Shown here piece after piece: positions 38,012-54,207 of a stretch of DNA of 64,000 nucleotides. Each line of letters begins with the position of its first letter. Position 1 is the stretch's first letter. Origin of the DNA: Oscillospiraceae bacterium (lineage in GTDB: Bacteria > Bacillota > Clostridia > Oscillospirales > Oscillospiraceae); NCBI GenBank assembly GCA_017479425.1, contig JAFVCD010000028.1, positions 41,048 through 105,047 of the forward strand, in the 5' to 3' direction. Made by a program: the position numbers and the translations under genes. The notes below the pieces were generated by a model. That model saw only the letters and a program-made list of their open reading frames with translations. It was not told where the DNA came from and did no database searches.

Positions 38012-38890
38012 TTATTTTCCGAGCTTTATTCCGGTAAGATGCTCGTAATACTGTGCGATTGCGCTGTGATCCTTCTGACCGCCGCCGTTTGCGTGCATCC
38101 ACTGCATGACCTCCATAACTCCGGCTGTAACGGGCGCCGGAGCGCCGACGGAGTGGGCGCAGGATAGGGCGTTGTTCAGATCCTTGATGTGAAGATCGAT
38201 TTTAAAGCCCGGCTTGTCGTTTCCGGAGAGCATCATAGGCGCCTTGGCGTTCATTACGTTAGAGCCCGCAAGACCGCCCTTTATCGCCTCAAAAACGAGC
38301 TCGGGATCGACTCCGGCCTTCTGCGCAAGGGTAAGCGCCTCGCTGAGCGCCTGAATGTTTGCGGCGACGATTATCTGATTTGCGAGCTTTGTGGTGTTTC
38401 CGGCGCCGATCTCGCCGCAGCGCACTACGGACGCGCCCATATGGGAAAGAACGGGCTTCATCTTATCAAAGATTTCCTGCTTGCCGCCCACCATAAAGCT
38501 GAGCTTGCCGCTTATTGCCATAGGCTCGCCGCCGGAAACTGGAGCATCGAGCATTTCTACGCCCTTTTCAGAAAGCTTTGCGGCGATCTCCTTGGAGTCG
38601 ATGGGGTTAATGGAGCTTGTGTCGACGAGAATCTGCCCTGCGTGCAAGGCGTTGTAGAACTCGTCTGCGAGAACGACCTCGCGAACCTGCGGGGAATTTG
38701 AAAGCATCGTGATTATGACATCGCAGCTTTCGGCGATGGAGAGGTAAGTGCCTTTTTTTGCTCCGGCGGCAACGGCTTCGGAGCACTTACTCTCGGTGCG
38801 GTTTGCTACGGTAACGTCAAGTCCGGCCTTTACAAGATTGATTGCCATGGGCTTTCCCATAATACCCATGCCTATAAAGCCTATTTTCAT
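38012..38890 (-). CDS. garR: 2-hydroxy-3-oxopropionate (tartronate semialdehyde) reductase / beta-hydroxyacid dehydrogenase
   Basis: This 292-residue NAD(P)-dependent enzyme of the 3-hydroxyisobutyrate dehydrogenase family has the N-terminal nucleotide motif G-F-I-G-M-G-I-M-G-K-P-M, the substrate motif D-A-P-V-S-G-G and the catalytic lysine region G-A-G-N-T-T-K-L-A-N-Q. It is most like tartronate semialdehyde reductase, which reduces tartronate semialdehyde to glycerate in glyoxylate and aldarate catabolism. A glycerate 2-kinase 4 kb away would phosphorylate the product, which supports the call. AAAAGGAG precedes the ATG. Confidence 0.86.
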   Translation of the reverse strand: MKIGFIGMGIMGKPMAINLVKAGLDVTVANRTESKCSEAVAAGAKKGTYLSIAESCDVIITMLSNSPQVREVVLADEFYNALHAGQILVDTSSINPIDSKEIAAKLSEKGVEMLDAPVSGGEPMAISGKLSFMVGGKQEIFDKMKPVLSHMGASVVRCGEIGAGNTTKLANQIIVAANIQALSEALTLAQKAGVDPELVFEAIKGGLAGSNVMNAKAPMMLSGNDKPGFKIDLHIKDLNNALSCAHSVGAPAPVTAGVMEVMQWMHANGGGQKDHSAIAQYYEHLTGIKLGK

Positions 38891-38999
38891 TTAAAAATCT
38901 CCTTTTATTTTTTGAGTTGAGTATATACAAAAAAAGGGTTCAGGTATATAATTGAATTCGAGATTGTATCTCCAAATTCGTCTTTTTGAGGTGAAAACT

Positions 39000-40217
39000 A
39001 TGTCCGCGTCAAATCTTAGCGTACAGGAGCGAATCGAAAATCTGAGGGAGCTTTTATCCTTCGGCGGAAGGATGTACACATGGGTTTATAATCTCGAGGG
39101 CGAGGTGCAGGAAACGAACTGCCCTGACCTCGTTCTGCACAAGGTATTTAAAAAATCGGGGTACCTCGAACGAATGCTCGAGCATGCGAGAGAGCATTCG
39201 GAGCCGATAGTCTTCAGCGTTCCTATGGGGCTTATGTGGGGCGCGGCGTTTGAGCGCGAGGGAGACGCTATTTCCAATATACACGTATTCGGGCCGGCGT
39301 CGTCTACAGAGCTCAGCATATGGGACGTGGACGATGCGCTGCGAAGAGCTGAGATGAGTCCAGGCCGGCGCAAGAAGCTTGAGCAGATACTGATGAACAT
39401 TCCGACAGTTTCCACAGTGGATTTTTTCAGATACATTCTTATGCTGCACTATTGCGTTACCGGCGAGAAGCTGACTAATTCCGATATCATATTTATGTCT
39501 CAGGGGATTGAAAAGACTGACTCCGGCGAAACGACTAAGCGGGACAGAATGAAAACCTATATGACAGAGCAGGCTCTTATGAGAATGGTCAGCGAGGGCG
39601 ACCTCAACTATAAAAGCATCCTTAATAATGCTGCCAATATAAGCAGGGGAGTAAGGGTTGACGATAACATGTCTTTAAGGCAGGTCAGAGTATCGCAGAT
39701 CGTGTTCATTTCGCTCTGCACCCGCGCGGCAATCGAGGGCGGCATATCTCCTGAGGTAGCCTATTCCCGCGGTGATGCCTATATTCAGGATATTCTCGAT
39801 TGCAAAAGCGTTACTGATGCGGTTCAGATCGGACACACTATGTACGATGATTTTGTCCGCCTCGTTCACAAAAGCCGGTCAAACCCCAAATATTCAAAGC
39901 AGATACAGAGCTGCTGCGAATATATAGAGCTGAATGCCGAAAAAAAGATAACTCTCAAGGCTCTTGCGTGTCATGTAGGCTACGTTGAATATTATCTTTC
40001 GCGCAAATTTAAAGAGGAGACAGGCTTTAGTATAAACGACTACATTAAAATAGTAAAGGTTGAGCACGCAAAAACGCTGCTGATTTCCTCGGATATGGGC
40101 ATTCAGGAGATATGCGATAAGCTCGGCTTCGGCTCGCGGAGCTTTTTTGCAGAGACCTTCAAGGAGATCACGGGTCTTCCTCCGGCGCGGTTCAGGGAGC
40201 AGAACAGAAGAATGTAA
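39000..40217 (+). CDS. AraC family transcriptional regulator
   Basis: This 405-residue regulator has a large N-terminal domain of unknown ligand (about 1-290) and two C-terminal helix-turn-helix motifs (about 300-400), seen in I-T-L-K-A-L-A-C-H-V-G-Y and the closing F-G-S-R-S-F-F-A-E-T-F-K-E-I-T-G-L-P-P. The start at ATG 39000 follows GAGGTGA; a frame extension upstream covers the promoter, where TATAAT lies at 38947-38952. It is divergent from garR and GH2 and precedes a GPH sugar symporter, so it probably activates one or both transcripts in response to a sugar or sugar acid. Confidence 0.9.
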   Translation: MSASNLSVQERIENLRELLSFGGRMYTWVYNLEGEVQETNCPDLVLHKVFKKSGYLERMLEHAREHSEPIVFSVPMGLMWGAAFEREGDAISNIHVFGPASSTELSIWDVDDALRRAEMSPGRRKKLEQILMNIPTVSTVDFFRYILMLHYCVTGEKLTNSDIIFMSQGIEKTDSGETTKRDRMKTYMTEQALMRMVSEGDLNYKSILNNAANISRGVRVDDNMSLRQVRVSQIVFISLCTRAAIEGGISPEVAYSRGDAYIQDILDCKSVTDAVQIGHTMYDDFVRLVHKSRSNPKYSKQIQSCCEYIELNAEKKITLKALACHVGYVEYYLSRKFKEETGFSINDYIKIVKVEHAKTLLISSDMGIQEICDKLGFGSRSFFAETFKEITGLPPARFREQNRRM

Positions 40218-40326
40218 TTTTAGCAAATATGAGGACATGGTAGCTAATTCAAAGATTTTTTTGCCGTAATCCGCAATGTATACTGTTTTCAGGCTCGTTT
40301 AGAAATAGATGAAGGAGAGCGATAGA

Positions 40327-41832
40327 ATGAACCTGAAAAAAATCATTGCTGGAGCAAAGGGCTCAAATAACGGCGTATACCGCACCGCGAGCATGAGATC
40401 AATGATTCTCGCCTGCGCCACCAGCGGCGGCAAGAACATCTTTATGATGCTGATGATGTACTCAAGCTACATAGCCAACGCGGGCTTCGGGGTCCTCGTT
40501 GCGGTAACTGGCATTATCATGACCGTTAAGACCATCTTTGACGGAGTATGTGATCCGTTCGTTGCCGCGATCTTTGACCGTATGCCGGCAGGAAAGCATG
40601 GTAAAATGCGCAAATTCCTCGCAATAGGGTACGGCAGCACGATTATCGCGGCAATTCTGATGTTCAGTATTCTGGTCAATAAGTTTGACGGAGTCATGGG
40701 CATCGTTGTATTTTGCCTCGTCTATGCGTTCTTCGTCGTAGGCTATACCGTTCTCAGTATCGGCGGCACCACGATCCCGACAATTCTCACAAACGACCCG
40801 AAGCAGCGCCCGTTCATGAACTTCACGGCGACGCTCTATCAGTATCTTGCTCCGCTTATTGTCAATAACCTTATGGCGTTCACCATTCTTCCGCGCCACA
40901 ATAACCAGTATGACGCGGCCTGCCTCGGCGAGGCGTGCTATCTCTTCTGCGGAATCGCCCTCGTGTTCATGCTCCTGACCTTCATCGGTATTGCGCCGGT
41001 TGATAATGACAAGGTGCTCGGAGAGCTCATGAGCCTCAGCGGAAAGAAGCAGAAGGTCGGCATCAAGGAAATGTGGAATATGCTCAAGGTCAACAAGCCC
41101 CTTCGCTGCTATATCGTAGCCGGCGCCTCCGATAAGCTTGCCACCAAGATGAGCACCGACTCCGTCGTTACGGTTATGCTCACGGGTATCCTTATTGCAA
41201 ACTATCAGGCAACAACGATGATAAATAACTCCGCTATGATCGTCGGACTGATATTTGCATTCCTCGGCGGCGTATTTATTGCCAAGTACGGCGTGAAGAC
41301 TTCGACGGTAGTCTGGTCGTATATTAATATTGCGGTGTCTCTCGGACTCTTTGCACTCTGTATGGTCATGGGACCGTGGGGCATGAAGCAGATCGGTATA
41401 GGCGGCTGGCCTATGATAATCTACGTCGGACTTATGATGGGCAAGAACGCGGCCCAGATGGTGCTTAACACTGCCGAAGGAATGATGCGCGCGGATATTG
41501 CCGACTATGAGCTTGACCGCAGCGGCAATTTTATGCCCGGTATGGTCGGAGCCTGCTATACCTTTACCGAGAAGCTCATCGCCTCTCTCGGCTCAACCTT
41601 CGTTACCTTTGCGGTCGCCCTTATCGGCTACACAACCGTAATGCCGCAGATGGGCGATAAGCCTTCGATTCCGCTGTTCTTCCTCACTATGGGTATGGTT
41701 TATGGAATGCCCATTCTCGGCTGGATCTGCAACCTTGTTGCGATGAAGTTCTATGAGCTCGATAAGGAGCGCATGGTAGAGATCCAGACGAATATTGCAG
41801 AGAAGAAAAAAGCGCTCAGCGCGAAAAAGTGA
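40327..41832 (+). CDS. GPH family (glycoside-pentoside-hexuronide) cation symporter
   Basis: This 501-residue MFS-type protein has about twelve transmembrane helices and typical GPH features: D-P-F-V-A-A-I-F-D-R near residue 75 after helix 2, the loop G-K-H-G-K-M-R-K-F, and T-I-P-T-I-L-T-N-D-P-K-Q-R in the first half. The family imports glycosides, pentosides or hexuronides with a cation. The start at 40327 follows AAGGAGAG; the earlier ATG at 40309 is part of that site. It lies between an AraC regulator and a lipoprotein and probably supplies the cytoplasmic GH2 enzyme with substrate. Confidence 0.88.
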   Translation: MNLKKIIAGAKGSNNGVYRTASMRSMILACATSGGKNIFMMLMMYSSYIANAGFGVLVAVTGIIMTVKTIFDGVCDPFVAAIFDRMPAGKHGKMRKFLAIGYGSTIIAAILMFSILVNKFDGVMGIVVFCLVYAFFVVGYTVLSIGGTTIPTILTNDPKQRPFMNFTATLYQYLAPLIVNNLMAFTILPRHNNQYDAACLGEACYLFCGIALVFMLLTFIGIAPVDNDKVLGELMSLSGKKQKVGIKEMWNMLKVNKPLRCYIVAGASDKLATKMSTDSVVTVMLTGILIANYQATTMINNSAMIVGLIFAFLGGVFIAKYGVKTSTVVWSYINIAVSLGLFALCMVMGPWGMKQIGIGGWPMIIYVGLMMGKNAAQMVLNTAEGMMRADIADYELDRSGNFMPGMVGACYTFTEKLIASLGSTFVTFAVALIGYTTVMPQMGDKPSIPLFFLTMGMVYGMPILGWICNLVAMKFYELDKERMVEIQTNIAEKKKALSAKK

Positions 41833-41846
41833 AAGGAAGGCAAACG

Positions 41847-42655: not shown

Positions 42656-42672
42656 AGAAAGCCAGCTTGAAT

Positions 42673-43911
42673 ATGAACTATAATAAAATGCGTGATGACG
42701 CTGAGAGAATAGCCTGCAGAGCAATAGGCTCATGCCTGCCGGATGAGGCGGTCAAAAGAGCGCTTTCCGGTAAAAGCTTTTCAGGCAGGGTGATGCTTGT
42801 AGCCGCGGGTAAGGCGGCGTGGCAGATGGCTAAAGCAGCCGCTCAATGCACTAAGATCGACGGAGGCATCGTCATAACGAAATACGGTCACGTTATGGGC
42901 GAAATACCGGGAGTGCGGTGCTTTGAGGCGGCTCATCCCGTTCCCGATGAGGTGGGAGTTTTGGCAACGGAGCGGGCTTTGGAGCTTATTCGCGGCCTTT
43001 CTGCCGATGATACCGTGCTGTTTCTCCTGTCCGGAGGCGGCAGCGCTCTGTTTGAAAAGCCGCTTGTCTCTCTGGATGAGCTGCGGAATATAACCAACGC
43101 GCTTCTTGCCTCCGGCGCGGAAATAACTGAGATAAACTCAATCAGAAAACGACTCTCAGCCGTTAAGGGCGGAAGATTTGCGCTCGCATGCGCTCCGGCG
43201 AAGGTCGAAGCGGTCATACTTTCGGATATTCTCGGCGACCCTGTAGATATGATTGCATCCGGACCTGTCAGTCCCGATTCATCAAGCTGCGCCGATGCGC
43301 TGGAGGTTGTCCGGAAGTACGGGATCAATATGAGCGAAAGCGCGCTTGAGCTCATGAATGTGGAAACGCCGAAGTATCTTGATAACGTTAAGATCAAGGT
43401 CGTCGGCTCGGTACGGGAGCTGTGCAGGGCGGCGGAAAGAGAGGCGGCAAGCCTCGGGTATCAAACATTTTTCCTTACGGATATGCTCTCCTGCGAGGCA
43501 AAGGAAGCGGGCAGAATGCTTGCGTCGATAGCGCAAAGCCATGCAGGGGACGGAAGAAAAGCGGCGTATATTCTCGGCGGCGAGACGGTAGTTCACCTTA
43601 CCGGAGACGGAATGGGCGGAAGAAATCAGGAGCTTGCGCTCGCTGCGGCGGAGGGACTGAGCGGAATTAACGCCTGCGTTATCAGTGTTGGCTCTGACGG
43701 AACTGACGGTCCGACGGACGCGGCCGGGGGTTATGCAGACGGCGAAACTCTTGAAAGACTGAATATTTCCGGCATAAGCTATTATGAAGCGCTCAGAAAC
43801 AACGACGCATACAACGCCTTAAAGGCGGTTGACGGACTTATATTCACTGGTCCGACCGGTACTAACGTCAACGACGTTTCGGTACTCCTTATCGGGGGAG
43901 CGGATAGATGA
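42673..43911 (+). CDS. Glycerate 2-kinase (GK-II / MOFRL family)
   Basis: This 412-residue enzyme phosphorylates D-glycerate to 2-phosphoglycerate. It has the DUF4147 domain with G-K-A-A-W-Q-M, A-A-H-P-V-P-D, the glycine loop L-L-S-G-G-G-S-A-L, the catalytic lysine region I-N-S-I-R-K-R-L-S-A-V-K-G-G and I-L-S-D-I-L-G-D-P. The C-terminal MOFRL domain has G-G-R-N-Q-E-L-A-L and S-D-G-T-D-G-P-T-D-A-A-G. The start at ATG 42673 has no strong Shine-Dalgarno; a TTG two codons upstream is an alternative. Its stop overlaps lrgA as ATGA. With garR nearby it completes a tartronate semialdehyde to 2-phosphoglycerate route. Confidence 0.92.
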   Translation: MNYNKMRDDAERIACRAIGSCLPDEAVKRALSGKSFSGRVMLVAAGKAAWQMAKAAAQCTKIDGGIVITKYGHVMGEIPGVRCFEAAHPVPDEVGVLATERALELIRGLSADDTVLFLLSGGGSALFEKPLVSLDELRNITNALLASGAEITEINSIRKRLSAVKGGRFALACAPAKVEAVILSDILGDPVDMIASGPVSPDSSSCADALEVVRKYGINMSESALELMNVETPKYLDNVKIKVVGSVRELCRAAEREAASLGYQTFFLTDMLSCEAKEAGRMLASIAQSHAGDGRKAAYILGGETVVHLTGDGMGGRNQELALAAAEGLSGINACVISVGSDGTDGPTDAAGGYADGETLERLNISGISYYEALRNNDAYNALKAVDGLIFTGPTGTNVNDVSVLLIGGADR

Positions 43912-44261
43912 AATATCTTCGAGGATTTGGAATAATACTGTGCTTAAGCGCCGCAGGAGAAATACTGCGGCGCTTTATCCCTTTGCCGGTTCCGGGCAGC
44001 ATATATGGGTTGGCGCTTCTGTTTGTTCTTTTGCGTCTGAAGCTCGTTAAGCTTGATGAAGTCAAAGCTCCGTCGGGTTTTCTTATAGAGATTATGCCGG
44101 TAATGTTTATTCCGGCTGCTGTCGGCTTAATGGACAGAGTTGACGAGGTAAGCGGATTTATTGTGCCGATTATGGTGATTGTCGTTGTATCGACTTTCGT
44201 TGTCCTCGTAGTCAGCGGGCTTTCATCGCAGGCTGTAATAAGGAGAAGAAGAGATGAATGA
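43908..44261 (+). CDS. lrgA: LrgA/CidA family membrane protein
   Basis: This 117-residue protein has four transmembrane helices and the family motifs P-L-P-V-P-G-S-I-Y-G-L and F-I-P-A-A-V-G-L-M. LrgA/CidA proteins were first described as holin-like, but LrgAB pairs are now tied to pyruvate transport, and the plant fusion PLGG1 moves glycolate and glycerate. Here lrgA is coupled to a glycerate kinase by ATGA and overlaps lrgB, so a transport role for a small hydroxyacid is more likely than a lysis role. That function is inferred. Confidence 0.9.
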   Translation: MKYLRGFGIILCLSAAGEILRRFIPLPVPGSIYGLALLFVLLRLKLVKLDEVKAPSGFLIEIMPVMFIPAAVGLMDRVDEVSGFIVPIMVIVVVSTFVVLVVSGLSSQAVIRRRRDE

Positions 44262-44946
44262 GATTTTCGCTTCGTCGGCACTTCTCGGAACGGTTCTCAG
44301 CCTTCTTTGCTATTATATCGGCGCAAAAATTAAGACCCGCGCGAAAACGGCGATTGCGAATCCGCTGCTGATTTCCGTTATTCTTGTTATTGTGTTTCTA
44401 TCGCTTTTCAGAATTGACTATGCGAGCTATCAGGCGAGCGCAAAATACATAAGCTGGTTTCTTACCCCCGCTACCGTGGCACTGGCGGTGCCGCTTTATG
44501 AGCAGCTGGAGAGGCTCAGGAGAAATCTTGCGGCTGTTGTAATAGGGGTCGGTATGGGAACTTTTTCCGGTATTCTGACCATATTCCTGCTTTCAAAGCT
44601 GTTCGGTCTGGAGAAAGCCGAATTTGTAACCCTGCTGCCTAAATCCGTCACAACCGCAATCGGAATAGCCGTTTCTGAGGAGCTTGGCGGATATCCGTCG
44701 TTAACTGCGGCGGCAATCGTGATCACGGGAATACTGGGAAACGTCTGCGCCGAGGGTGCTTGCAGAGTATTCAGAATTACCGAGCCGGTTGCAAAGGGAC
44801 TTGCAATCGGAACTGCGTCCCACGCTATCGGCACGTCAAAGGCGATGGAGATCGGCAAAACTGAGGGGGCTATGAGCTCACTTGCCCTTGTGCTTTCGGG
44901 GATCATAACCGTAGCCGGCGCGAGTATCATTACTAACATATATTAA
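44254..44946 (+). CDS. lrgB: LrgB/CidB family membrane protein
   Basis: This 230-residue protein has about seven transmembrane helices and the LrgB hallmarks L-L-P-K-S-V-T-T-A-I-G, the following G-G-Y-P-S-L-T-A, and A-I-G-T-A-S-H-A-I-G-T-S-K-A near the C-terminus. It forms a complex with LrgA. The operon glycerate kinase-lrgA-lrgB suggests uptake or exchange of glycerate or glycolate. A bidirectional terminator follows. Confidence 0.92.
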   Translation: MNEIFASSALLGTVLSLLCYYIGAKIKTRAKTAIANPLLISVILVIVFLSLFRIDYASYQASAKYISWFLTPATVALAVPLYEQLERLRRNLAAVVIGVGMGTFSGILTIFLLSKLFGLEKAEFVTLLPKSVTTAIGIAVSEELGGYPSLTAAAIVITGILGNVCAEGACRVFRITEPVAKGLAIGTASHAIGTSKAMEIGKTEGAMSSLALVLSGIITVAGASIITNIY

Positions 44947-44982: not shown

Positions 44983-46086
44983 TTACATCCATTCACTTGG
45001 ATCCTTCCAGCCTCTTGCACCGAGGAATTTTTCAAGAGGAAGCTTCTCAATCTCCGATTTCGGCAGGTTGGAGTTCATCAGCCTTGCCCAGCCTCCCTCA
45101 GCCTTTCCGCCGGAAACCGCGTCTGACTCACGCATAAGATTCATAAGCGGCTCGTCAGCTTCAAAGCGCCTTGCATTTTCGCGGATTATCTCAATGCTCG
45201 CCGCCTGTCTGTCAGGAACCTGCGGAGTGACGTGCGGCGTTATATAGACATTTGACATTTTCCAGAGCGGGGAATCCGCGCTGAGCGGCTGCTCCTCAAA
45301 TACGTCGAGTCCGGCGCCGGAGAGAGTGCCGTCCGACAGAGCTTCAATAAGAGCATCGGTATCAACAACTCCTCCTCGTGAAATATTCACGAGGAACGCG
45401 CCCTTTTTTATTTTTCCAAAGGCGTCCTTGTTTATGAGATGGAAGGTCGCATCGGTCAGCGCAACGGTGAGAATAACGAAGTCGGAGCCTACAAGAAGCT
45501 CGTCAAGGCTGTCGCCGTTCTGGGCTGTCAGCTTTTTAGCATAGTCAAAGCCCGCGACCTCGGAGCGATTGTAGGTAATTATATCCATACCGAGCGCTCG
45601 AAGCCTTTCGCATAGCATTTTTCCGGTATGTCCCATACCGACGATACCTGCTGTACACCCGTATAGACCGCGCCATTTTTCACTGCCCTCAACGCCCCAG
45701 CGGCACTCATCTTGAGCGCGAAGAAGCTCTCGGGTGTGATAACAGCTCTGAAGCATGAAATAAATGGCGTGTTCTGCGAGCACCGGCGCGCTTCTGCCTG
45801 CTGCGCCGGTTACAGGTATGCCGCGCGCAAAGACCTCGGGTCTTGCGGAACCGTTCAGACCTGCGTGGTCGCAGTGTATCCATTTCAGCGTGTTTTCTCC
45901 GAGAATGCAGTTATCCACGTCGCCGAGAAGTATGCAGACGTCGGCGTCCTTAACCTCTTCGGAAAGCTTCTCTTTGTCATAAAAATCCACATAGACAAAC
46001 TGAGCGTTTGGAAACACGCGGCGGAGAGAGTACATATTCTTTTTGTTGTACCAGACTGTGGTCACTACCTTGTTAATTTTCGGCAT
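44983..46086 (-). CDS. D-isomer-specific 2-hydroxyacid dehydrogenase
   Basis: This 367-residue NAD(P)-dependent dehydrogenase has a catalytic domain around a Rossmann domain with G-I-V-G-M-G-H-T-G-K-M (about 147-157). The catalytic residues are Arg237 in N-I-S-R-G-G, a Glu in D-V-F-E-E-Q-P (264/265) and His285 in T-P-H-V-T-P-Q. Such enzymes interconvert 2-keto and D-2-hydroxy acids, for example glyoxylate and glycolate or hydroxypyruvate and D-glycerate. The start is the ATG ending at 46086 with AAGGAGG upstream. It is divergent from the FdrA operon across a repeat-rich promoter region, which suggests co-regulation. A C-terminal extension of about 60 residues is unusual. Confidence 0.88.
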   Translation of the reverse strand: MPKINKVVTTVWYNKKNMYSLRRVFPNAQFVYVDFYDKEKLSEEVKDADVCILLGDVDNCILGENTLKWIHCDHAGLNGSARPEVFARGIPVTGAAGRSAPVLAEHAIYFMLQSCYHTRELLRAQDECRWGVEGSEKWRGLYGCTAGIVGMGHTGKMLCERLRALGMDIITYNRSEVAGFDYAKKLTAQNGDSLDELLVGSDFVILTVALTDATFHLINKDAFGKIKKGAFLVNISRGGVVDTDALIEALSDGTLSGAGLDVFEEQPLSADSPLWKMSNVYITPHVTPQVPDRQAASIEIIRENARRFEADEPLMNLMRESDAVSGGKAEGGWARLMNSNLPKSEIEKLPLEKFLGARGWKDPSEWM

Positions 46087-46142
46087 ACGCAGCGCCTCCT
46101 TTTTTCTAATTATGCCACAGTATTGAAACAATGACCATACTT

Positions 46143-46272: not shown

Positions 46273-48195
46273 ATGTCAGAATGGTGGATAAACTACCCCT
46301 GGCGGGTAATACAGCCGAATTTCAGAGAAATTGACACCGTTAACTTTGATACCGAAAGATTTATTGCTGAGCTTAAGGAGTTCAAAGCGAACGTCGTTAT
46401 GCTGAATGCGGCAGGACTTATGGCGAGCTATCCGAGCGCTCTTTGCGATGAGCCGCAGAGCGAATATCTTGATGACTTTGACCTCGGAGCCCTTGTGGAA
46501 AGGCTTCACAGGGAAAAGATCAAGGTTATCGCGAGAACGGATTTTTCTAAGATTTCAGAAAGCGTTTTCAAGCGTCATCCGGAATGGGCTTACCGCCATG
46601 CAGACGGTTCTCCGCTTATTTATAACGGCTATGTTCAGACCTGCGTTCTCGGCGGCTATCAGGCGGAGTATATGGACGATATCATTCGGGAAATGCTCTC
46701 GAAAATACCCTTTGACGGGATCTATATCAATATGGGTTCGGCAACGGGATATATCGTTGATTACAGCATGAACCGGCACGGACCCTGCCATTGCGACAGA
46801 TGCAGAGCTGCGTTCAAAGCGGCTGCAGGACTTGAGATACCGGCAGAGCTTCGTCCGGGTGACAGAGCAAGCATGATGTATTTCGGTTTTCAGCAGAATA
46901 TTGCCGCGGCGCAGAAAAAGAGAATAACAGAGCTTGTTCACTCCATAAGTCCGGAAATAGCCTACTGCTCGGTAGATTACTCCAGACAGGAGGCGCAGGC
47001 AAGCTACGGCGCAGAAACGTGGCAGTACGCGGCGTCGTCAAATGCCCGTATGATGCGCGGTATGGACTTGGAGGCAACGGTAGCGAACGTGGATTTTATG
47101 GGTTTTTCTTACCGCCACGTTTCCTGCCCGCCGGCACTTCAGGAACTGAGGGCCTGGCAGACGCTCGCAAATTTCGGCGGCCTTGACTACTACGTTATGG
47201 GCAGGCTCTACGATAAAGCCGACAAGAGCGCCTTTGAGCGAATAAAGCGCGTGTTCGGGTACGCCGCAGAGCACGAGAACATTGTGTACGGAGTAAAGAG
47301 CAAGGCGGACATCCTGCTTGTAAAGGACTCGTATATTATACCGAACGCCGAGGAACGCGGCTGGGTAAGACTGCTCACCGAAAACCACTTTGTTTTTGAT
47401 GAAACTCTGCTGAGCGGGCTTGCTAAGAAAGGACTTTCTGAGTATAAACTTTTGATCCTTCCCGACAAGTCGAGAATCCGAAAGCCTTTGAACGCAATAA
47501 TTGATGAGTATGTAAGAAGAGGCGGCACAGTTATCACAAGCGGCGCCGTACCGGAGCTTGAAGCTGTCGGCGTTACAGGAGTACAGAATACAGATAAAAA
47601 CGAGGGCGCAGTGCTTTTGGACGGCGGCAAACGCCTCATTCCGGGAAAGAAGTATATTAAAAGCACAGTAAAGCCCGGCGCGGAAAAGCTCGGGTCATAT
47701 CTCGCGCCTGAGCGATTCGGTCCACCGGAGCTGTGTTATGCAACAGAGCCGCCGACAGAGTATCCATGCGCTGTTGTGAACACCTTCGGCGGAGGTAAGT
47801 GCATCACACTTCCGTGGTTTATCGGCGAGTGCTACTGCACAGATGGACACACGTCATATCTCGACTATGCGCGGGAGCTTATTGAAGCTAAGTGCAAAAT
47901 AAAGAGCATCGGGAAAAAAATCAGCCCTATGGTCGAGGTTACCCGCGGAGTCAAGGACGGCGCGGAGATCATTCATTTTGTGAACGGAACAGGCCGTTTT
48001 GGCAACAGCTTTTTTGATCCGGCGGAGCTGAGAGACCAGAGTATAACTATACCGTGGGAGCGGAAGACCGCAATTTGCGAAAATATTGACGACCCGGATA
48101 ATGTAGAATATGAGCTTTCCGACGGAGAGCTGACAATTTATTTACCAAGGCTGAACTTTCACGCCTGCATTGCAGTCAAGGAGGAAAATAGATGA
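46273..48195 (+). CDS. Hypothetical glycosyl hydrolase 6 (GHL6)-like protein with beta-galactosidase trimerisation-like domain
   Basis: The 640-residue cytoplasmic protein has a TIM-barrel-like half (about 1-330) with the GHL6-type pattern: I-K-V-I-A-R-T-D-F after strand 3, H-P-E-W-A-Y-R, and D-G-I-Y-I-N-M. An unusual Cys-containing loop H-G-P-C-H-C-D-R-C follows and is common in this family. The second half contains a flavodoxin-like domain like the trimerisation domain of GH42 enzymes (L-L-I-L-P-D, G-G-T-V-I-T-S-G). No activity is established for GHL6. It is the first gene of a six-gene coupled operon; its stop overlaps the next ATG as ATGA. It may release a sugar derivative that is the substrate of the downstream enzymes. 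Confidence 0.78.
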   Translation: MSEWWINYPWRVIQPNFREIDTVNFDTERFIAELKEFKANVVMLNAAGLMASYPSALCDEPQSEYLDDFDLGALVERLHREKIKVIARTDFSKISESVFKRHPEWAYRHADGSPLIYNGYVQTCVLGGYQAEYMDDIIREMLSKIPFDGIYINMGSATGYIVDYSMNRHGPCHCDRCRAAFKAAAGLEIPAELRPGDRASMMYFGFQQNIAAAQKKRITELVHSISPEIAYCSVDYSRQEAQASYGAETWQYAASSNARMMRGMDLEATVANVDFMGFSYRHVSCPPALQELRAWQTLANFGGLDYYVMGRLYDKADKSAFERIKRVFGYAAEHENIVYGVKSKADILLVKDSYIIPNAEERGWVRLLTENHFVFDETLLSGLAKKGLSEYKLLILPDKSRIRKPLNAIIDEYVRRGGTVITSGAVPELEAVGVTGVQNTDKNEGAVLLDGGKRLIPGKKYIKSTVKPGAEKLGSYLAPERFGPPELCYATEPPTEYPCAVVNTFGGGKCITLPWFIGECYCTDGHTSYLDYARELIEAKCKIKSIGKKISPMVEVTRGVKDGAEIIHFVNGTGRFGNSFFDPAELRDQSITIPWERKTAICENIDDPDNVEYELSDGELTIYLPRLNFHACIAVKEENR

Positions 48196-49454
48196 CAGTT
48201 CCGGAAAAGGTAGCAGAAGCCAATGAGAGGGTAATAAATATAATGACGAAGGCGCGCCCAGTCTGGACGGACGTTCGTCCGGCAATAGACGCAGTTCCGG
48301 GTATGGAAAAGAATCTCATACTTATTCCCGGACCGCCGATAGAGGTGAAGGAATTGCCGATACCGCTTAAAACCGCGGTCTGCGGCGCCGCCTGCCATGA
48401 CGGCCTTGCAAAGAACGTGGACGAGGCGTGGGAGATGGTTTTGCGCGGCGAGATCAAGATCGCGCCCAGTCAGGACTATAACTGCGGCAACGCCGCGTCA
48501 AGCGTTATGAGCGCAAGTATGCCGGTGTTCGTAGTGGAGGATAAGACCTCCGGCGGGGCAGGCTACTGCGTGCCGCACCCCGGCTCAAATCCGAGAGTGC
48601 TCCGCTGGGGCATTTACGGCGAAGATGTTGAGGAGAATCTGCGCTTTATTCGAGGCGACTATGCAGAGGTTCTGGGTGAGGCAGTCAGAAAAAGCGGAGG
48701 AATAGACCTCGTAAGAATCCTCTCCAAAACTGCCGGAATGGGCGATGAGAACCATAACCGCCAGCCTGCGGCTTCAATGGCTCTCGCGCTTGAACTCGTT
48801 CCGTTTCTTCTTGATGTTCAGCATCCTGCGAGGGACAGGGTAATAAAGGAGATCTGCGCGAACGACCGCTTCTTCCTGCACGTTATGATGGCGGGAGTAG
48901 AGGCTGTTATGCAGAAGGCGAAGGAGGAGCCGTACTCCACCGTTATGGTGGGCATGGGAGGCAACGGAGTCGAGTTCGGCATACAGGTTGCCGCAACGGG
49001 AAACAGGTGGTACACTACGCCGGCGCCGAAGATTTCCGGAATCTTCCTGAAGCCGACCACCACGGAAGCCGACCTTCTCGGCTACCTCGGCGACAGCTGC
49101 GTTACGGAGGTCTGGGGCCTCGGCGGCATGAGCGCTATTGCTGGCCCGGTCTATCTCAGAATGACCGGCGGCACCTTCCGCGACGCAAAAGAGCGCACGG
49201 AAAAGGCAAGGCAGGTTTCTCTCGGGGAGCATAACTTCGCGCCCGTACCGTGGGACGATTACAGAGGCTTCCCGGTCGGAGTGGATATCCGAAAGGTTGT
49301 AGGTCTTAACATTCTGCCTGTATCCCATGGAGGCAGCGCACTCAAGACCGGAGGTCAGGCTGGCGCAGGAGCAGCCGAGCTTCCTATGGAGGTTTTCAAA
49401 AAAGCCGTTGAGGGTGTAGCGAATGAGGTAAAGAGAATGGAGGGCGAGGAGTAA
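48192..49454 (+). CDS. DUF1116 protein, YlbE/AllG-like subunit of an FdrA-type transferase
   Basis: This 420-residue protein belongs to DUF1116, the family of E. coli YlbE (AllG), which acts with FdrA (AllF) and AllH in oxamate carbamoyltransferase during allantoin use. Glycine-rich segments seen are G-G-A-G-Y-C-V-P-H-P-G-S-N, M-V-G-M-G-G-N-G-V-E-F-G and G-L-G-G-M-S-A-I-A-G-P. The length equals that of the E. coli protein. It is coupled to the GHL6 gene (ATGA) and to fdrA (TAATG). No AllH-like (DUF2877) gene is in the window, so either two subunits suffice or the reaction differs. Confidence 0.85.
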   Translation: MTVPEKVAEANERVINIMTKARPVWTDVRPAIDAVPGMEKNLILIPGPPIEVKELPIPLKTAVCGAACHDGLAKNVDEAWEMVLRGEIKIAPSQDYNCGNAASSVMSASMPVFVVEDKTSGGAGYCVPHPGSNPRVLRWGIYGEDVEENLRFIRGDYAEVLGEAVRKSGGIDLVRILSKTAGMGDENHNRQPAASMALALELVPFLLDVQHPARDRVIKEICANDRFFLHVMMAGVEAVMQKAKEEPYSTVMVGMGGNGVEFGIQVAATGNRWYTTPAPKISGIFLKPTTTEADLLGYLGDSCVTEVWGLGGMSAIAGPVYLRMTGGTFRDAKERTEKARQVSLGEHNFAPVPWDDYRGFPVGVDIRKVVGLNILPVSHGGSALKTGGQAGAGAAELPMEVFKKAVEGVANEVKRMEGEE

Positions 49455-50992
49455 TGAGTGTATTTTTTATTATCCAAAAGGACAGATATATAGATTCCCT
49501 CGAGACCCTCTCGGAAACGGCTATGCTGAACGATCAGCCCGGTATCGGTACGGGATACGTAGGTATGGCGACTGAGGTGTTCAAGGAGGTCACGAAGGAG
49601 ATAGGACTTACAGCACCCGAAATACTTGCCGCAGCCGACTCGGATTATGTGATAGTCGCCGAAGCGGAGAGCGAGGAGGCGTTCAATAAAGCCATAGAGA
49701 AGCTCCGCACAGAGAGCGCGCCGGTGGACGATGAGGAAAAGCCAGTGTCGTTCAGAACGAGCGCTCAGGCAAAGGAACATGAGCCGAGGGCAAACCTCTG
49801 CCAGATAAGCGTGCCGGGCGAATATGCGCTTGAGGAAGCGAAAAAGGCGCTTAACGCGGGAATGCATATCTGCGTATTCTCAAATAACGTTCCGCTTTCG
49901 GACGAACGGGAGATGAAGGAACTAGCACGAGAAAAGGGACTTTTGTGCATGGGACCCGACTGCGGCGTTGCAAATATAAACGGCGCGGCTCTGGTTCTCT
50001 CCAGCATAAACAACCGAGGCCCGTTCGGCATCGTCGGAGCTTCAGGAACGGGCATACAGCACGTCGCCGCGATACTCCACGAGGCGGGCAGCGGCGTAAG
50101 CCAGACCATAGGCACCGGCGGCAACGACCTCAAGGAGCCGGTGGGCGGCATAACAATGCTCATGGGCATCGACGCGCTGGAGGCCGACCCGGAGACAAAG
50201 TATATAATCCTCATTTCGAGAAAGCCCGCCGACAGCGTTCTCAAAAAGCTGCTTGAAAGAATAAGCGGGATGAAGAAGCCGAGAGTCGTATTCTTTATGG
50301 GCTGCGACAGAGAAACCATCGAGGCGACCGGCTCTGTCTGGGCGGAAAATCTCGACGACTGCGCACTGAGAGCGCTGGAGCTTATACATAGCGATTATTC
50401 CCTCGGCAGTATTGACGAGCTTAAGGAGACGGCGAAGGAAGCGGTAAAGGGAATGGCGCCGGAGCAGAAGTATCTGCGCGGAGCATATACAGGCGGCACG
50501 TATCTCGACGAGGCTATGCGCACTATGTGGGATGCCGCGGGCGGGATATGGTCGAACGCGCCTCTCTCGCCGGAGTGGAAGCTCAAGGGCGATAGCCGGG
50601 AGCACACCTGCATCGATTACGGTGAGGAGGAGTACACCCTCGGCAGACCGCACCCTGCGATAGACGCGTCCATAAGAAAGCCGGCAATACTGAAAGAGGC
50701 GTCGGATCCCACTGTTGCGGTCATCGTTCTCGATGTTATTCTTACGCCTCCGGGACATCCAGACCCATGCGGATATATGGTGCCGGATATTATAAAGGCT
50801 CAGAAGATGGCTGCTGAAAGAGGCGGGAAGATAGTGTTTATAGCCTCCGTTCTCGGCACGACCGCAGACTGGCAGGACATAAGAAAGCAGGAGCAGGAGC
50901 TTCGCGACGCCGGCGTCATCGTATGCCGCACAAATTACCGCGCCGCGCTGCTCTGCGCGGAGATAGTAAAACTCAGGAGGGACGCGCAATGA
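49454..50992 (+). CDS. fdrA: FdrA family protein (AllF-like, succinyl-CoA ligase alpha fold)
   Basis: This 512-residue protein is built from CoA-ligase-like domains. The nucleotide/CoA-type segments are M-G-P-D-C-G-V-A-N-I-N-G-A, G-I-V-G-A-S-G-T-G-I-Q-H and I-G-T-G-G-N-D-L-K, followed by D-P-E-T-K-Y-I-I-L-I-S-R-K-P. The histidine that is phosphorylated in succinyl-CoA synthetase is not visible, as is usual for FdrA. In E. coli the homolog is part of the oxamate carbamoyltransferase that makes carbamoyl phosphate. Here it is followed by an acyl-phosphate kinase of a different family. The call to FdrA is firm; the substrate is open. Confidence 0.9.
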   Translation: MSVFFIIQKDRYIDSLETLSETAMLNDQPGIGTGYVGMATEVFKEVTKEIGLTAPEILAAADSDYVIVAEAESEEAFNKAIEKLRTESAPVDDEEKPVSFRTSAQAKEHEPRANLCQISVPGEYALEEAKKALNAGMHICVFSNNVPLSDEREMKELAREKGLLCMGPDCGVANINGAALVLSSINNRGPFGIVGASGTGIQHVAAILHEAGSGVSQTIGTGGNDLKEPVGGITMLMGIDALEADPETKYIILISRKPADSVLKKLLERISGMKKPRVVFFMGCDRETIEATGSVWAENLDDCALRALELIHSDYSLGSIDELKETAKEAVKGMAPEQKYLRGAYTGGTYLDEAMRTMWDAAGGIWSNAPLSPEWKLKGDSREHTCIDYGEEEYTLGRPHPAIDASIRKPAILKEASDPTVAVIVLDVILTPPGHPDPCGYMVPDIIKAQKMAAERGGKIVFIASVLGTTADWQDIRKQEQELRDAGVIVCRTNYRAALLCAEIVKLRRDAQ

Positions 50993-51174
50993 CAGATACA
51001 AGCAAGATACTGAGCCTGTTCCGTTCGGAGCTTGTTGTGGTCAACGTTGGGCCAAAATCTTTTGCCGACGTTCTTGAAAAGCAGGGCTACAAATCGCTCC
51101 AGGTCGATTGGAAACCCGCGGCCGGTGGAGATAAGAGAATGCAGGAGCTCCTCGATTACCTCGGAGGTTATTGA
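50989..51174 (+). CDS. Small FdrA-domain protein (61 residues)
   Basis: This short gene begins with an ATG that overlaps the fdrA stop as ATGA, behind AGGAGG. The product contains V-V-V-N-V-G-P-K-S-F-A-D-V-L, then Q-V-D-W-K-P-A-A-G-G, which matches the small proteins annotated as FdrA-domain proteins next to fdrA in other Firmicutes. It has no signal peptide or membrane helix. Probably it is a small third subunit, and it might take the place of AllH. The acetate-kinase-like gene starts 1 base after its stop codon. Confidence 0.78.
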   Translation: MTDTSKILSLFRSELVVVNVGPKSFADVLEKQGYKSLQVDWKPAAGGDKRMQELLDYLGGY

Positions 51175-51175
51175 A

Positions 51176-52351
51176 ATGAAGGTTTTAGTCTGCAACGTCG
51201 GCTCGACCAGCCTTAAATTCAAGCTCTACGAAATGCCGGAGGCAAGGGTGCTCGCGCAGTGCGGCGTAGAGCGCGTCGGCAGCGATAAGGACGCTGTATT
51301 CAAATACGAAAACTTCCTCACAGAGAAGAAAAACGCCGCTGAAAAGGCGGACATTCCGGATTATGAGAGCGGTATACGCCTTTTTCTTGAATATCTCACC
51401 GATAAAGAATACGGCGTGCTCGGATCGGTTTCCGAGATAGAGCGAGTGGGCTACAAGGCGACGCTCTCCAAAGGCCACCTCGGCGTACACGAGCTTGACG
51501 ATGAGGTTTTACGTGGAATGGAGGACTGGATAAGCCTCGCACCCCTGCACAACAGAGCATACCTTGCGGCAATTAAGGTAATGCGAAGCTTTTTACCTGA
51601 GGCCAGATTCGTAGGCTGCTTTGAAACGGCTTTCCACCGCACGATACCGCTCGAGCGCAAAATCTACGGCGTACCCTACGAATGGTATGAAAAATACGGG
51701 GTTCAGCGCCTGGGATACCACGGCGCAAGTCACGGGTATATCGCGGACGTTCTGAACGCGAGATACGGCGAGTATGCAGCCGTTTCCTGCCACTTGGGCG
51801 GAAGCTGCTCCGTCTGCGCGATTGAGAACGGCAGAAGCGTTGACACAAGCTTCGGCATGAGCCTTGAGAGCGGACTTATCCACGCAAACAGAGTGGGAGA
51901 TATGGACGCAAGCATGCCGTATTTTCTCAGAAGCGAGGGAGCTTCTGACGATGAAATTTTGAAGGGTATGCAGAAAACCGGCGGGCTTTACGGCATTTCC
52001 GGAGTTTCAAACGACCTGCGCTACGTTATTGAGGCTGCGGAGGACGGAAACGAGAGAGCGAAGCTTGCCATAGACGTGTTTGTAACCGGCATAGTCCACT
52101 ATATCGGCGCCTTCACCATGGATCTGGGGCGGCTTGACTGTCTCGTGTTCACAGCCGGAATAGGAGAGCATTCGGCCTATATCCGTCAGAGAGTTTGCGA
52201 AAAGCTGGGGCTCCTCGGCGTTAAGATAGATAAAGAGAAAAACGGCAAAAACGAAGAGGACATTTCTGCGCCGGATTCAAAGGTGCGCGTGCTTGTGATA
52301 CCGACAAACGAGGAGTTGGGCATTGCCCGGAGAACCTATGAATACAGATAA
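51176..52351 (+). CDS. Divergent acetate kinase family (acyl-phosphate kinase) protein
   Basis: This 391-residue ASKHA-fold kinase has the acetate kinase pattern throughout: N-V-G-S-T-S-L-K-F-K at residues 7-16, Arg90 (equivalent to E. coli Arg91), L-A-P-L-H-N, His182 in G-Y-H-G-A-S-H (equivalent to His180), Arg239 in N-R-V-G-D (equivalent to Arg241) and F-T-A-G-I-G-E-H. Pocket residues differ: the usual H-G-G after Arg91 is K-A-T (94-96), and the catalytic Asp148 of F-D-T-A-F-H is Glu150. The start at ATG 51176 follows CGGAGG. In this operon it probably transfers the phosphate of an unusual acyl phosphate to ADP. A plain acetate kinase is less likely. Confidence 0.85.
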   Translation: MKVLVCNVGSTSLKFKLYEMPEARVLAQCGVERVGSDKDAVFKYENFLTEKKNAAEKADIPDYESGIRLFLEYLTDKEYGVLGSVSEIERVGYKATLSKGHLGVHELDDEVLRGMEDWISLAPLHNRAYLAAIKVMRSFLPEARFVGCFETAFHRTIPLERKIYGVPYEWYEKYGVQRLGYHGASHGYIADVLNARYGEYAAVSCHLGGSCSVCAIENGRSVDTSFGMSLESGLIHANRVGDMDASMPYFLRSEGASDDEILKGMQKTGGLYGISGVSNDLRYVIEAAEDGNERAKLAIDVFVTGIVHYIGAFTMDLGRLDCLVFTAGIGEHSAYIRQRVCEKLGLLGVKIDKEKNGKNEEDISAPDSKVRVLVIPTNEELGIARRTYEYR

Positions 52352-53144
52352 GCTGCCTGAAATAGATCCGACAGCGCCGGGAATGAAAAATGCGCTCAGA
52401 ATGCTGCGGCGCACGGTACAGCTTGAGGCGCAGAGAGTAAAGGAGCAGGACTATATTTTCGGAGAGAGCGAAGAGAGGGCGATGCTCTATCTTCACGGCG
52501 GCGGGTTTTACCTGCCTGCACAGGCTTTTTCTTTGAGGCTTGCGGAGAGATACGCAAAGGAGCTTGACTGCGCCGTATTCGTGCCGGAATATCCGCTTGT
52601 CCCAGACGCGGGCGCAGATGAGATCTTCGGCTTCTGCCTTCGGGAATACATAAAGCTGCGGGAAAAATATCCGAAGCTCATAGTATATGGCGAGAGTGCC
52701 GGCGGCGCGCTGGCGCTTGGCATAGCTCTCCGGGCAAGGGATGAGGGTATTTCCGCGCCGGACGGTCTGATGCTCATCTATCCGGCGCTTGATGATAGAA
52801 CTGATAATGAAATGCCGGAGGCTGCGTGGACAGCGAGGGCAAACCGGCTTATGTGGGACTCTTATCTCAGAAACGCGCCGCAGGAGATGGTAAAGTATCT
52901 TGCCCCGATGCGGCACGAGGACTTCTCCGGCTTGCCGGTGACCTATGTCGAGGCGGCCGAGCTTGACATACTCTGCACTGAAGCGTTACAGTGCGCGCAT
53001 AGGCTTGGAACAGAGGCAAATATAATCCGCGGCGCGAAGCATATGTTCGACGCTGAAGCGCCTTTATCCTTTGCACAAGAAACGATAGATAAACGGATAG
53101 CGTTTGAAGAGAATATATATATTTCTGACAAAAAGACACCGTAA
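52338..53144 (+). CDS. Alpha/beta hydrolase, hormone-sensitive lipase (HSL) type esterase
   Basis: This 268-residue cytoplasmic esterase has the oxyanion motif L-H-G-G-G-F (residues 52-57), the nucleophile Ser120 in G-E-S-A-G-G, and probably Asp210 in A-E-L-D-I-L and His235 in K-H-M-F-D to complete the triad. The start overlaps the end of the kinase gene by 14 bases, so it is the last gene of the coupled operon. HSL-type enzymes cut short-chain esters, for example acetyl groups on sugars. Here it may deacylate the operon's substrate. Confidence 0.87.
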   Translation: MNTDKLPEIDPTAPGMKNALRMLRRTVQLEAQRVKEQDYIFGESEERAMLYLHGGGFYLPAQAFSLRLAERYAKELDCAVFVPEYPLVPDAGADEIFGFCLREYIKLREKYPKLIVYGESAGGALALGIALRARDEGISAPDGLMLIYPALDDRTDNEMPEAAWTARANRLMWDSYLRNAPQEMVKYLAPMRHEDFSGLPVTYVEAAELDILCTEALQCAHRLGTEANIIRGAKHMFDAEAPLSFAQETIDKRIAFEENIYISDKKTP

Positions 53145-53213
53145 AAAATAGTCCCAATACAAAGTGAGAAGTCGTGAAAGCGGCTTCTCACTTACTGTTT
53201 GCATCTATGGAGC

Positions 53214-53486
53214 ATGGGAATATAGGCAGGATAAATACAAAAGTTGTGCAAAAACAGACATACGTTTTCATTTACAAAACACCTGCGTAAGATATATGAA
53301 GACCTCGGCTTCCCAAAAGAGTTTCACCTCCACACGCTCCGACACCTGTTCGTCTCAACGCTCCTCCACAACGGCGTGGACAAGCAGACGGTAGCGGAGC
53401 TGGCGGGACATGGCGATACCTCATTTTTGGAGCGCACCTACTGTCACAGACAAATCATCACGAAGCCCAGCGGAGCGGGTTCGTGA
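53214..53486 (+). pseudogene. Tyrosine recombinase remnant, catalytic C-terminal part
   Basis: The frame reading L-H-T-L-R-H-L-F (the H-x-x-R motif), then L-A-G-H-G-D-T-S-F-L-E-R-T-Y-C-H with the catalytic Tyr, is the end of a phage-type integrase. No N-terminal half exists upstream and no clear start codon is present. It lies just after the FdrA operon, so an element once inserted here. Confidence 0.75.
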
Positions 53487-53716
53487 TGACAAAGAAGAAG
53501 AAAGGAGCAGATATGCAGTTTTCGTGCGATGAGCGCGGAAACGCTTACCTCATAGTAGTCTCGATGGGCTATGACTATGAAGGCAAGCGCAGACCGGCGC
53601 AGCAAAAGAAAGTACATCCGCCTAAGGACCTGACGAAGAAGCAGACAGAGAAGTGGCTAAATGGACAGGCAACGCTGTTTGAAGCAGAACATCGACCGCA
53701 TACTCCCTGCGCTTAG
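53483..53716 (+). pseudogene. Integrase N-terminal arm-binding fragment
   Basis: This 77-codon frame carries the N-terminal DNA-binding region typical of clostridial Tn916/phage integrases: G-N-A-Y-L-I-V-V-S-M-G-Y-D, then P-K-D-L-T-K-K-Q-T-E-K-W-L-N. It stops where the core domain should follow. With the fragment at 53814 it forms the two ends of an integrase that has lost its middle. Confidence 0.7.
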
Positions 53717-53752
53717 TAGGTAAAGACTGTAAAACGAGGTGTAGGGCGGCAT

Positions 53753-53793
53753 GCCATGATTTTCGGTTGCCGCACAGCGGCGAGAAAATCGGC
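53753..53793. repeat. 41-bp structured repeat, copy 2
   Basis: This is the same three-stem element as at 23005-23045 (35 of 41 positions identical, with one compensated base-pair change). Here it lies between two integrase fragments, with no gene directly downstream. Confidence 0.6.
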
Positions 53794-53813
53794 ATAAAAT
53801 AATAATAACAGAA

Positions 53814-54090
53814 AGCGGCGCTGAAGGAGGAGAACATCAAGTACGAAACCTACTACAAGCTTCTGCTCAGCACAGGTCTGATACTCAAAAAGCATGGACT
53901 GCCGGAAAACCTTACAGTTCACTCCTTGCGCCACACCGCAGCGAGCCTTATGATAGCAAACGGCACGGATGTGGCGACGGTAGCCGGTATCCTCGGACAC
54001 AACCAGGTCAGCACCACCCACGCCTTCGATAAGAATAAGCGCACCGCCGGCGAGGCGCTTCAAGAGGTGCTGGAAATAAAAATCTCCGAT
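53814..54090 (+). pseudogene. Integrase C-terminal fragment lacking the catalytic tyrosine
   Basis: The frame includes N-L-T-V-H-S-L-R-H-T-A-A-S-L-M and V-A-G-I-L-G-H-N-Q-V-S-T-T, then H-A-F-D-K-N-K-R. In intact relatives a short segment with the catalytic Tyr stands between S-T-T and H-A-F, so about five codons appear deleted. It is a decayed second recombinase, or the end of the fragment at 53483. Confidence 0.7.
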
Positions 54091-54177
54091 TTGACGAGAA
54101 GATTGTTCTCGACTTGTAGGAATCAAAGTGGTATTGTCCGTGTTACGCAATGCTCTGATTACTGCGACGCAAAAGGA

Positions 54178-54206
54178 AACCGTGGAGAAAAGCAAATCTC
54201 CACGGA
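54178..54206 (-). terminator. Terminator of nnrE
   Basis: On the minus strand, CCGTGGAG (54198-54205) pairs with CTCCACGG (54180-54187), extended by one A-T pair, and TTTCCTTTT follows. It starts two bases past the nnrE stop codon. Confidence 0.75.
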
Positions 54207-54207
54207 A

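Follow-up and report, generated by a model that had tools for sequence, protein, structure and literature searches.

A conserved FdrA/AllG gene set with its own acetate-kinase-family kinase in Oscillospiraceae and other bacteria, and a possible acyl-phosphate route to ATP

Six coupled genes and a detached FdrA domain

The 64,000-nucleotide stretch analysed here (the window; Oscillospiraceae bacterium, NCBI GenBank assembly GCA_017479425.1, contig JAFVCD010000028.1, positions 41,048 to 105,047) carries an operon that joins homologues of AllG and FdrA, known from oxamate carbamoyltransferase of E. coli, to a kinase of the acetate kinase family, here named AckL. An earlier note, made from the sequence alone, had described six genes coupled by overlaps or a 1-base gap; the same six open reading frames (ORFs), collinear on the plus strand at the same coordinates, are borne out by their junctions and by their Pfam and NCBIfam families. 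GHL6 (46273..48195, 640 residues) is a hypothetical glycosyl hydrolase family 6 protein (PF14871, 81.3 bits against a cut-off of 35), and its stop at 48195 overlaps by 4 bases the ATG of AllG at 48192. AllG (48192..49454, 420 residues) is a DUF1116 protein (PF06545, 217.9 bits against 27) and a homologue of the solved structure 3clq; its stop and the ATG of FdrA, both at 49454, overlap by 1 base. The FdrA/AllF homologue (49454..50992, 512 residues), related to 3dmy and featuring CoA_binding and Ligase_CoA domains, is without the C-terminal domain, and its stop at 50992 overlaps by 4 bases the ATG, at 50989, of the 61-residue FdrC (50989..51174). A 1-base gap separates the FdrC stop at 51174 from the ATG of AckL at 51176 (51176..52351, 391 residues; PF00871, 338.7 bits). 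The AckL stop at 52351 and the esterase ATG at 52338 overlap by 14 bases, and the esterase (Est, 52338..53144) is an alpha/beta hydrolase of the Abhydrolase_3 family (PF07859, 109.5 bits) in whose translation the motifs HGGGF and GESAG were read.

The operon is real rather than a chance arrangement, as the same AllG-FdrA-FdrC-AckL set turns up again in related loci. Genome contigs scanned for AllG yielded 55 loci, 49 of which (L005-L053) carry an AllG of the window's kind at 54-98% identity; the AllG tree agrees for the 46 of the 49 that were long enough to give a row. By the six-frame list, AckL and FdrC are each present in 40 of these 49. Eight of the nine loci without AckL end before its expected place, and the ninth is L038 (Anaerolineaceae). 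The order AllG-FdrA-FdrC-AckL is found in Oscillospiraceae, Lachnospiraceae, Erysipelotrichaceae, other Clostridia and one Sphaerochaeta, and neighbouring genes of the set mostly overlap or lie a few bases apart, the largest outlier being 298; a NUDIX gene lies between FdrC and AckL in L029 and L037. Record titles place the set in samples of goat, sheep, cattle and water deer origin, and isolate or species names indicate that rabbit and chicken are probably further sources. In L031 (11126-11983) and several relatives, with isolate names that point to the rabbit gut, AckL is followed by a DUF6282 gene. AckL is rare within the class, since only 2 of 391 genomes carry it at E 1e-125, namely that of the window and G723, each of which also has AllG. 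G723 belongs to the window's genus, is 100% complete, and has AllG, FdrA and FdrC near AckL and no AllH; it is probably the same organism as L037 and hence not independent of it.

The smallest gene required a correction. The earlier note had called its product a 61-residue FdrA-domain protein, and the kinship stands, but the protein is the detached C-terminal domain of FdrA encoded as a separate gene, because the match to NF004760 (555 positions) splits into 3-496 in the FdrA body (368.5 bits, under the curated cut-off of 433) and 501-554 in FdrC. Each part falls below that whole-protein cut-off, and FdrC has no Pfam match. FdrC also matches residues 510-554 of E. coli AllF, at the AllF C-terminus, and residues 4-53 of YahG, at the YahG N-terminus. 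It is free-standing in 40 of 50 loci of the AckL clade defined below; the other 10 gave no FdrC call, most of them being cut short. Where at least 400 bases extend beyond FdrA, the gene calls include FdrC in 39 of 40 such loci, and the fortieth (L047) has it in the six-frame list. In 71 other loci the domain lies near the start of the AllG chain (36), stands free (22), ends FdrA (4), is internal (2) or was not found (7); one internal case, L097, is taken for a likely artefact of a long ORF start. A frameshift or assembly error behind the 61-residue gene is ruled out by the free-standing copies in both groups of loci and by the fusions elsewhere. In the other, L123 (7394-10393, minus strand), from a genome of the window's taxonomic order, a single 999-residue chain joins FdrA, FdrC and AllG, on a stretch that also contains AllH and carbamate kinase. 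The mobility of FdrC and the L123 fusion argue for a single complex made up of FdrA, FdrC and AllG.

Two clades of AllG and an altered kinase

In E. coli, AllF, AllG and AllH interconvert oxalurate plus inorganic phosphate and oxamate plus carbamoyl phosphate (PMC11326118). The AllG tree separates two lineages, with AckL and AllH linkages on opposite sides. Of its 120 rows, 39 AckL-linked and 8 cut-short or lone rows (47; the AckL clade, to which the window's AllG belongs) lie on one side with a support of 100 in the Shimodaira-Hasegawa-like approximate likelihood ratio test (SH-aLRT), and 58 AllH-linked rows and 15 without AllH in view (73; the AllH clade) lie on the other. The tree was built by a quick method without bootstrap, after AllG rows of fewer than 330 residues had been dropped (L025, L051, L052, L154 and L155; 5 of 123), and L156 gave no row. 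Within the phylum, AllG occurs in 60 of 398 genomes, including the window's own. The 65 stretches taken around the AllG matches of the other 59 (L155 and L156, with weak or broken AllG, counted among them) contain AllH in 52 and carbamate kinase in 31, and AckL as a query found no acetate-kinase-family gene in them at E 1e-20. Iterated hidden Markov models for AllG and FdrC drifted into fusion proteins, and the counts rest on seed-only or clade models.

Both clades retain the AllG motifs M183-G-D-E-x-H188-x-R190 and G300-D-S-x-x-x-E306, and the FdrA motifs GPDCG and G397...H400-P401. The AllG residues fixed in the AllH clade (H93, N128, E129, R258, D298 and H385, E. coli numbering) are changed in the AckL clade, the window having Q94, H129-P130, G257, Y298 and L384 at the corresponding places. 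Switched positions, compared at the level of sequence, are those fixed at thresholds of 93% and 90% between the 47 AckL-clade and 73 other rows. These kept cores and changed residues may be read as one chemistry acting on another substrate. Two further arrangements were observed outside the AckL clade. Tandem AllG pairs follow FdrA and FdrC in L136 (4790-7309), L141 (6633-9154) and L145 (6595-9130). The tree puts the two copies on separate branches, a sign that AllG may be heteromeric there. The Caldiserica loci L054, L056 and L058 carry FdrA and AllG with AllH in all three (six-frame list) and a free-standing FdrC in L054 and L056; a molybdopterin xanthine-dehydrogenase-like gene, identified by Pfam on L054, has related genes in L056 and L058, and the three look like a purine route.

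The earlier note had seen no YlbF-like (AllH, DUF2877) gene and had placed an acetate-kinase-family enzyme in the carbamate kinase slot, and both observations hold. The window's genome (1.77 Mb, 84% complete) has one AllG copy; neither AllH (PF11392) nor a carbamate kinase over the cut-off was found in it, the best match to the latter reaching 19.5 bits against 358. AllH was likewise not found in 23 of 24 other AckL genomes, of unstated completeness. A genome encoding both proteins had been named in the earlier note as evidence against its idea. The window's genome is not such a case at its 84% completeness, and one related genome, that of L024, encodes AllH and a carbamate kinase over the cut-off somewhere in its sequence. 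Carbamate kinase does exist in some AckL carriers: it is over the cut-off in 7 of the 24 other genomes, and one more has a match below it at 309 bits. Homologues of AllK and YahI are absent from the AckL loci. No stand-in for AllH was found among the annotated recurrent neighbours; c16, c23, c38 and c39, for example, lay outside the annotation. Two candidates for that role were rejected: a 261-residue gene at 41829-42614, which reads as a lipoprotein and whose cluster spans only 3 sources including the window, and the esterase, which is not universal.

The kinase itself differs from its relatives at defined positions. AckL passes TIGR00016 (341 bits against 293.4) and was compared with four canonical kinases, namely M. 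thermophila acetate kinase, 2iir (Acetate kinase), 7fj7 (Probable propionate kinase) and a second acetate kinase encoded elsewhere in the window's genome. All four carry R91, D148, F179, N211, P232 and G239 (M. thermophila numbering), and all 38 full AckL copies show R91K, D148E, F179Y, N211G, P232L and G239A. All 38 copies retain seven positions (H123, H180, H208, R241, D283, R285 and E384), and 37 retain N7, S10 and S12, with one gap. By work on the M. thermophila enzyme, R91, D148, F179, N211 and P232 are acetate-site residues, and N7, S10, S12, H180, H208, R241, D283 and E384 are ATP and catalytic positions. Since six positions are switched in every full copy, AckL is not an ordinary acetate kinase. 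The genome's canonical enzyme (497 bits), to which AckL is 40% identical, keeps the usual residues at those positions. The switches make the acyl site a different one, perhaps more polar, and do not by themselves name the acid.

Partner genes and the glycerate context

Partner genes were counted in full-flank loci (AckL loci with 6 kb or more to the left and right of AllG, and AllH-clade stretches of 14 kb or longer), dereplicated at 95% AllG identity. L038 was left out beforehand (AckL is in 17 of 18 loci with it), L054-L059 stand on neither side, and without dereplication there are 26 AckL loci and 54 AllH-clade stretches. In the 17 dereplicated AckL loci we found AckL in 17, GHL6 in 14, a D-2-hydroxyacid dehydrogenase (HADH) in 13, a GarR-type reductase in 13, the esterase in 12, a MOFRL-type glycerate kinase in 9 and an LrgB-like protein in 3; each of these is present in 0 of 48 AllH-clade stretches. 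HADH, GarR and the MOFRL kinase are recurrent partners that we add to the earlier note, and they suggest what becomes of a second product. Conservation is uneven. Outside L005 and L006, identity is 54-91% for AllG, 52-85% for FdrA, 57-84% for AckL and 28-66% for GHL6 (28-96% with those two loci), and the esterase is at 34-42% outside L005. GarR is at 68-73% in 12 of 13 loci and at 98% in the remaining one, and 10 of 13 HADH matches reach at least 57%. All four GarR copies tested (window, L018, L028 and L047) exceed the equivalog cut-offs of NF008592 and TIGR01505 (2-hydroxy-3-oxopropionate reductase). The usual feeders of GarR were not found at curated strength, as glyoxylate carboligase and hydroxypyruvate isomerase are each over the cut-off in 0 of 25 genomes.

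In the window, HADH (44983..46131, minus strand; PF02826, 175.9 bits), a candidate hydroxypyruvate reductase, lies directly upstream of the operon. It is preceded, on the plus strand, by the MOFRL-type glycerate 2-kinase (42667..43911; PF13660 and PF05161, its nearest NCBIfam models being glycerate 2-kinases whose cut-offs it does not reach) and by LrgA-like (43908..44261; PF03788) and LrgB-like (44254..44946; PF04172) membrane proteins, the latter a candidate carboxylate transporter. Farther upstream are the GarR-type tartronate semialdehyde reductase (38012..38890, minus strand; NF008592 413.7 bits against 397, TIGR01505 373.6 bits against 340.75), an AraC-type regulator (38952..40217, plus; PF12833), a GPH/MFS_2 glycoside transporter (40309..41832, plus; PF13347, TIGR00792 below cut-off) and a glycoside hydrolase family 2 (GH2) protein (35849..37993, minus; PF02836 and PF02837). 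The 261-residue putative lipoprotein, so assigned by eye and without a Pfam match, stands between the transporter and the glycerate kinase, and another putative lipoprotein adjoins AllG in the Sphaerochaeta loci. Downstream of the esterase (53164-54444), short ORFs resemble, by eye only, pieces of a tyrosine recombinase or integrase. Glycosidases and glycoside transporters are among the neighbours in the AckL loci. A flavin adenine dinucleotide (FAD)-dependent oxidoreductase recurs in 6 related loci, the window's cluster not being one of them, and the AckL-clade AllG of L038 (1005-11233) lies beside two FAD_oxidored-like genes, a GH2 gene and, by eye, a glycoside hydrolase family 3 gene.

Proposed reaction, alternatives and known systems

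We propose, with a probability of roughly 0.55, that AllG, FdrA and FdrC constitute one enzyme, a paralogue of oxamate carbamoyltransferase, that would use inorganic phosphate to cleave a non-carbamoyl substrate to an acyl phosphate, from which AckL would transfer the phosphoryl group to ADP, yielding ATP and the free acid. The other product would probably be a C3 acid, either hydroxypyruvate or its tautomer tartronate semialdehyde. Reduction by HADH and the GarR-type enzyme could turn this acid into D-glycerate, which the MOFRL kinase could phosphorylate to 2-phosphoglycerate, and the substrate may be freed from an imported glycoside or ester by GHL6, other glycosidases and the esterase. The sequence shows the gene set and its conservation, the split into clades, the missing AllH, the switched residues and the partner genes; complex formation, phosphorolysis, its direction and its products are inferred. 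A pattern in which the core is kept, AllH is lost, and the kinase and fixed residues are changed is what phosphorolysis of a different substrate, coupled to ATP formation, would lead one to expect; hydroxypyruvate or tartronate semialdehyde as the second product is suggested by the glycerate genes. The earlier note had favoured a substrate other than the known one, and the sequence (AckL, the AllG switches and the clade split) and the gene context argue for it. Overall, its interpretation is partly supported, and its main idea survives the tests for the window's genome and emerges strengthened.

Several observations weigh against this proposal. We found no biochemistry for any member of the AckL clade. 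In L038 an AllG of the AckL clade is followed by neither FdrA nor AckL within 10 kb, and all the partners looked for are missing. The MOFRL kinase is in only 9 and the esterase in 12 of the 17 loci, and three of the 13 HADH matches are weak (31-45% identity) and may be other dehydrogenases. Of the 25 genomes, 20 contain weaker relatives of glyoxylate carboligase, the best scoring 510 bits where the cut-off is 711, and 16 contain weaker relatives of hydroxypyruvate isomerase, the best scoring 138 bits where the cut-off is 353. A possible source of tartronate semialdehyde, an HpcH/HpaI aldolase over the cut-off, is present in 15 of the 25, the window's genome not among them. The annotated recurrent neighbours hold no obvious gene for making a dicarbonyl acid. 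Finally, E. coli allFGH also has glycerate genes nearby (glxR, glxK, hyi and gcl), and a reading of the glycerate genes as a glyoxylate branch is possible.

A more specific version, which we offer tentatively and regard as doubtful, would make AllG-FdrA-FdrC a 2,4-dioxo-acid phosphorylase. It is drawn by analogy with oxalurate (HOOC-CO-NH-CO-NH2), whose carbon analogue would be a 2,4-dioxo acid (HOOC-CO-CH(OH)-CO-R). Phosphorolysis between C3 and C4 would give the enediolate of hydroxypyruvate or tartronate semialdehyde together with R-CO-phosphate, which AckL would use to make ATP; the cluster could provide the outlet for the enediolate in its two candidate reductases and glycerate kinase. 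If R were dihydroxyethyl, both halves would end as glycerate.

Alternatively, FdrA/AllG and AckL could act as a two-step acyl-CoA (coenzyme A) ligase/phosphotransacylase on the succinyl-CoA synthetase fold, forming an acyl phosphate from acyl-CoA and inorganic phosphate and then ATP. The CoA_binding and Ligase_CoA domains of FdrA and its alignment with succinyl-CoA synthetase alpha lend this idea some appeal. However, GH[AS]G, the phosphohistidine motif of that subunit, is in 0 of 45 FdrA sequences and in neither AllF nor YahF of E. coli (a phosphotransacylase step would still be compatible), no acyl-CoA gene is among the annotated recurrent neighbours, and the AllFGH reaction is written without CoA (PMC11326118). 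We consider this alternative unlikely.

It is also quite unlikely that the set is still an oxamate carbamoyltransferase, with AckL working as a carbamate kinase of an unusual type and the genes for glycerate belonging to a glyoxylate branch in the use of allantoin. In its favour, the set includes homologues of AllF and AllG, E. coli has glxR, glxK, hyi and gcl next to allFGH, and E. coli AllFG without AllH gave back 7% of wild-type oxamate (PMC11326118). Against this stand the near-uniform loss of AllH described above, the switching of AllG residues fixed in the AllH clade, and the glycosidases and glycoside transporters among the neighbours. The allantoin pathway itself is judged unlikely, as the AckL loci contain no homologue of AllB, AllC or AllD, and AllH and a glyoxylate carboligase over the cut-off are missing as well. 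The view that AckL is a plain acetate kinase and that the complex yields acetyl phosphate agrees with its passing TIGR00016, but six switches in 38 of 38 copies, beside a canonical acetate kinase in the window's genome that keeps the usual residues, make it improbable. Least probable of all is a link through sugar regulation only, with AllG-FdrA-FdrC-AckL as one set and the glycerate and glycosidase genes as another co-inherited pathway: the outer genes do vary in order and presence between families, and GHL6 is less conserved than AllG, FdrA and AckL, but the partners reappear in different families of Bacillota and, in part, in Spirochaetota while being absent from all 48 AllH-clade stretches, many intergenic gaps are overlaps, and GarR is well conserved.

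In the literature on oxamate carbamoyltransferase/FdrA, DUF1116, GHL6, YahF/YahG and related chemistry, the titles and abstract openings among the matches listed describe no FdrA/AllG set with an acetate-kinase-family kinase. To our knowledge, substrate-level phosphorylation via an acyl phosphate is known from few reactions. If the proposal is true, a second FdrA/AllG clade with a dedicated kinase would widen that list and extend the enzyme type beyond carbamoyl transfer, and acetate-kinase-family genes that family models label acetate kinase would gain a testable role. The conserved AckL gene set points to an undescribed ATP-making route in some gut bacteria, and its occurrence in animal samples may bear on gut bacterial use of a plant or host glycoside.

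Relative to E. coli AllF-AllG-AllH with AllK, the window's operon likewise combines AllF and AllG homologues, their cores kept, with an acyl-phosphate kinase. It differs in having no AllH, an acetate-kinase-family kinase in place of carbamate kinase, a separate FdrC gene, switched AllG residues, a glycoside context and no allantoin genes nearby. E. coli yahEFG-yahI has FdrA-like, AllG-like and AllH-like genes near a carbamate kinase-like gene, with the FdrC domain fused to the start of YahG; the AllH and the carbamate kinase-like gene set it apart from the window's operon, and YahG falls on the AllH side of the tree. AckL shares family PF00871 and its catalytic residues with acetate and propionate kinases and departs from them in its acyl-site residues in all 38 full copies. 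Finally, 2,4-diketo-3-deoxy sugar acid hydrolases would cleave 2,4-dioxo acids of the type put forward above, with an unrelated fold and by hydrolysis, with no gain of ATP; if the 2,4-dioxo-acid version holds, the AckL set would perform an ATP-saving retro-Claisen cleavage where the known hydrolases waste that energy.

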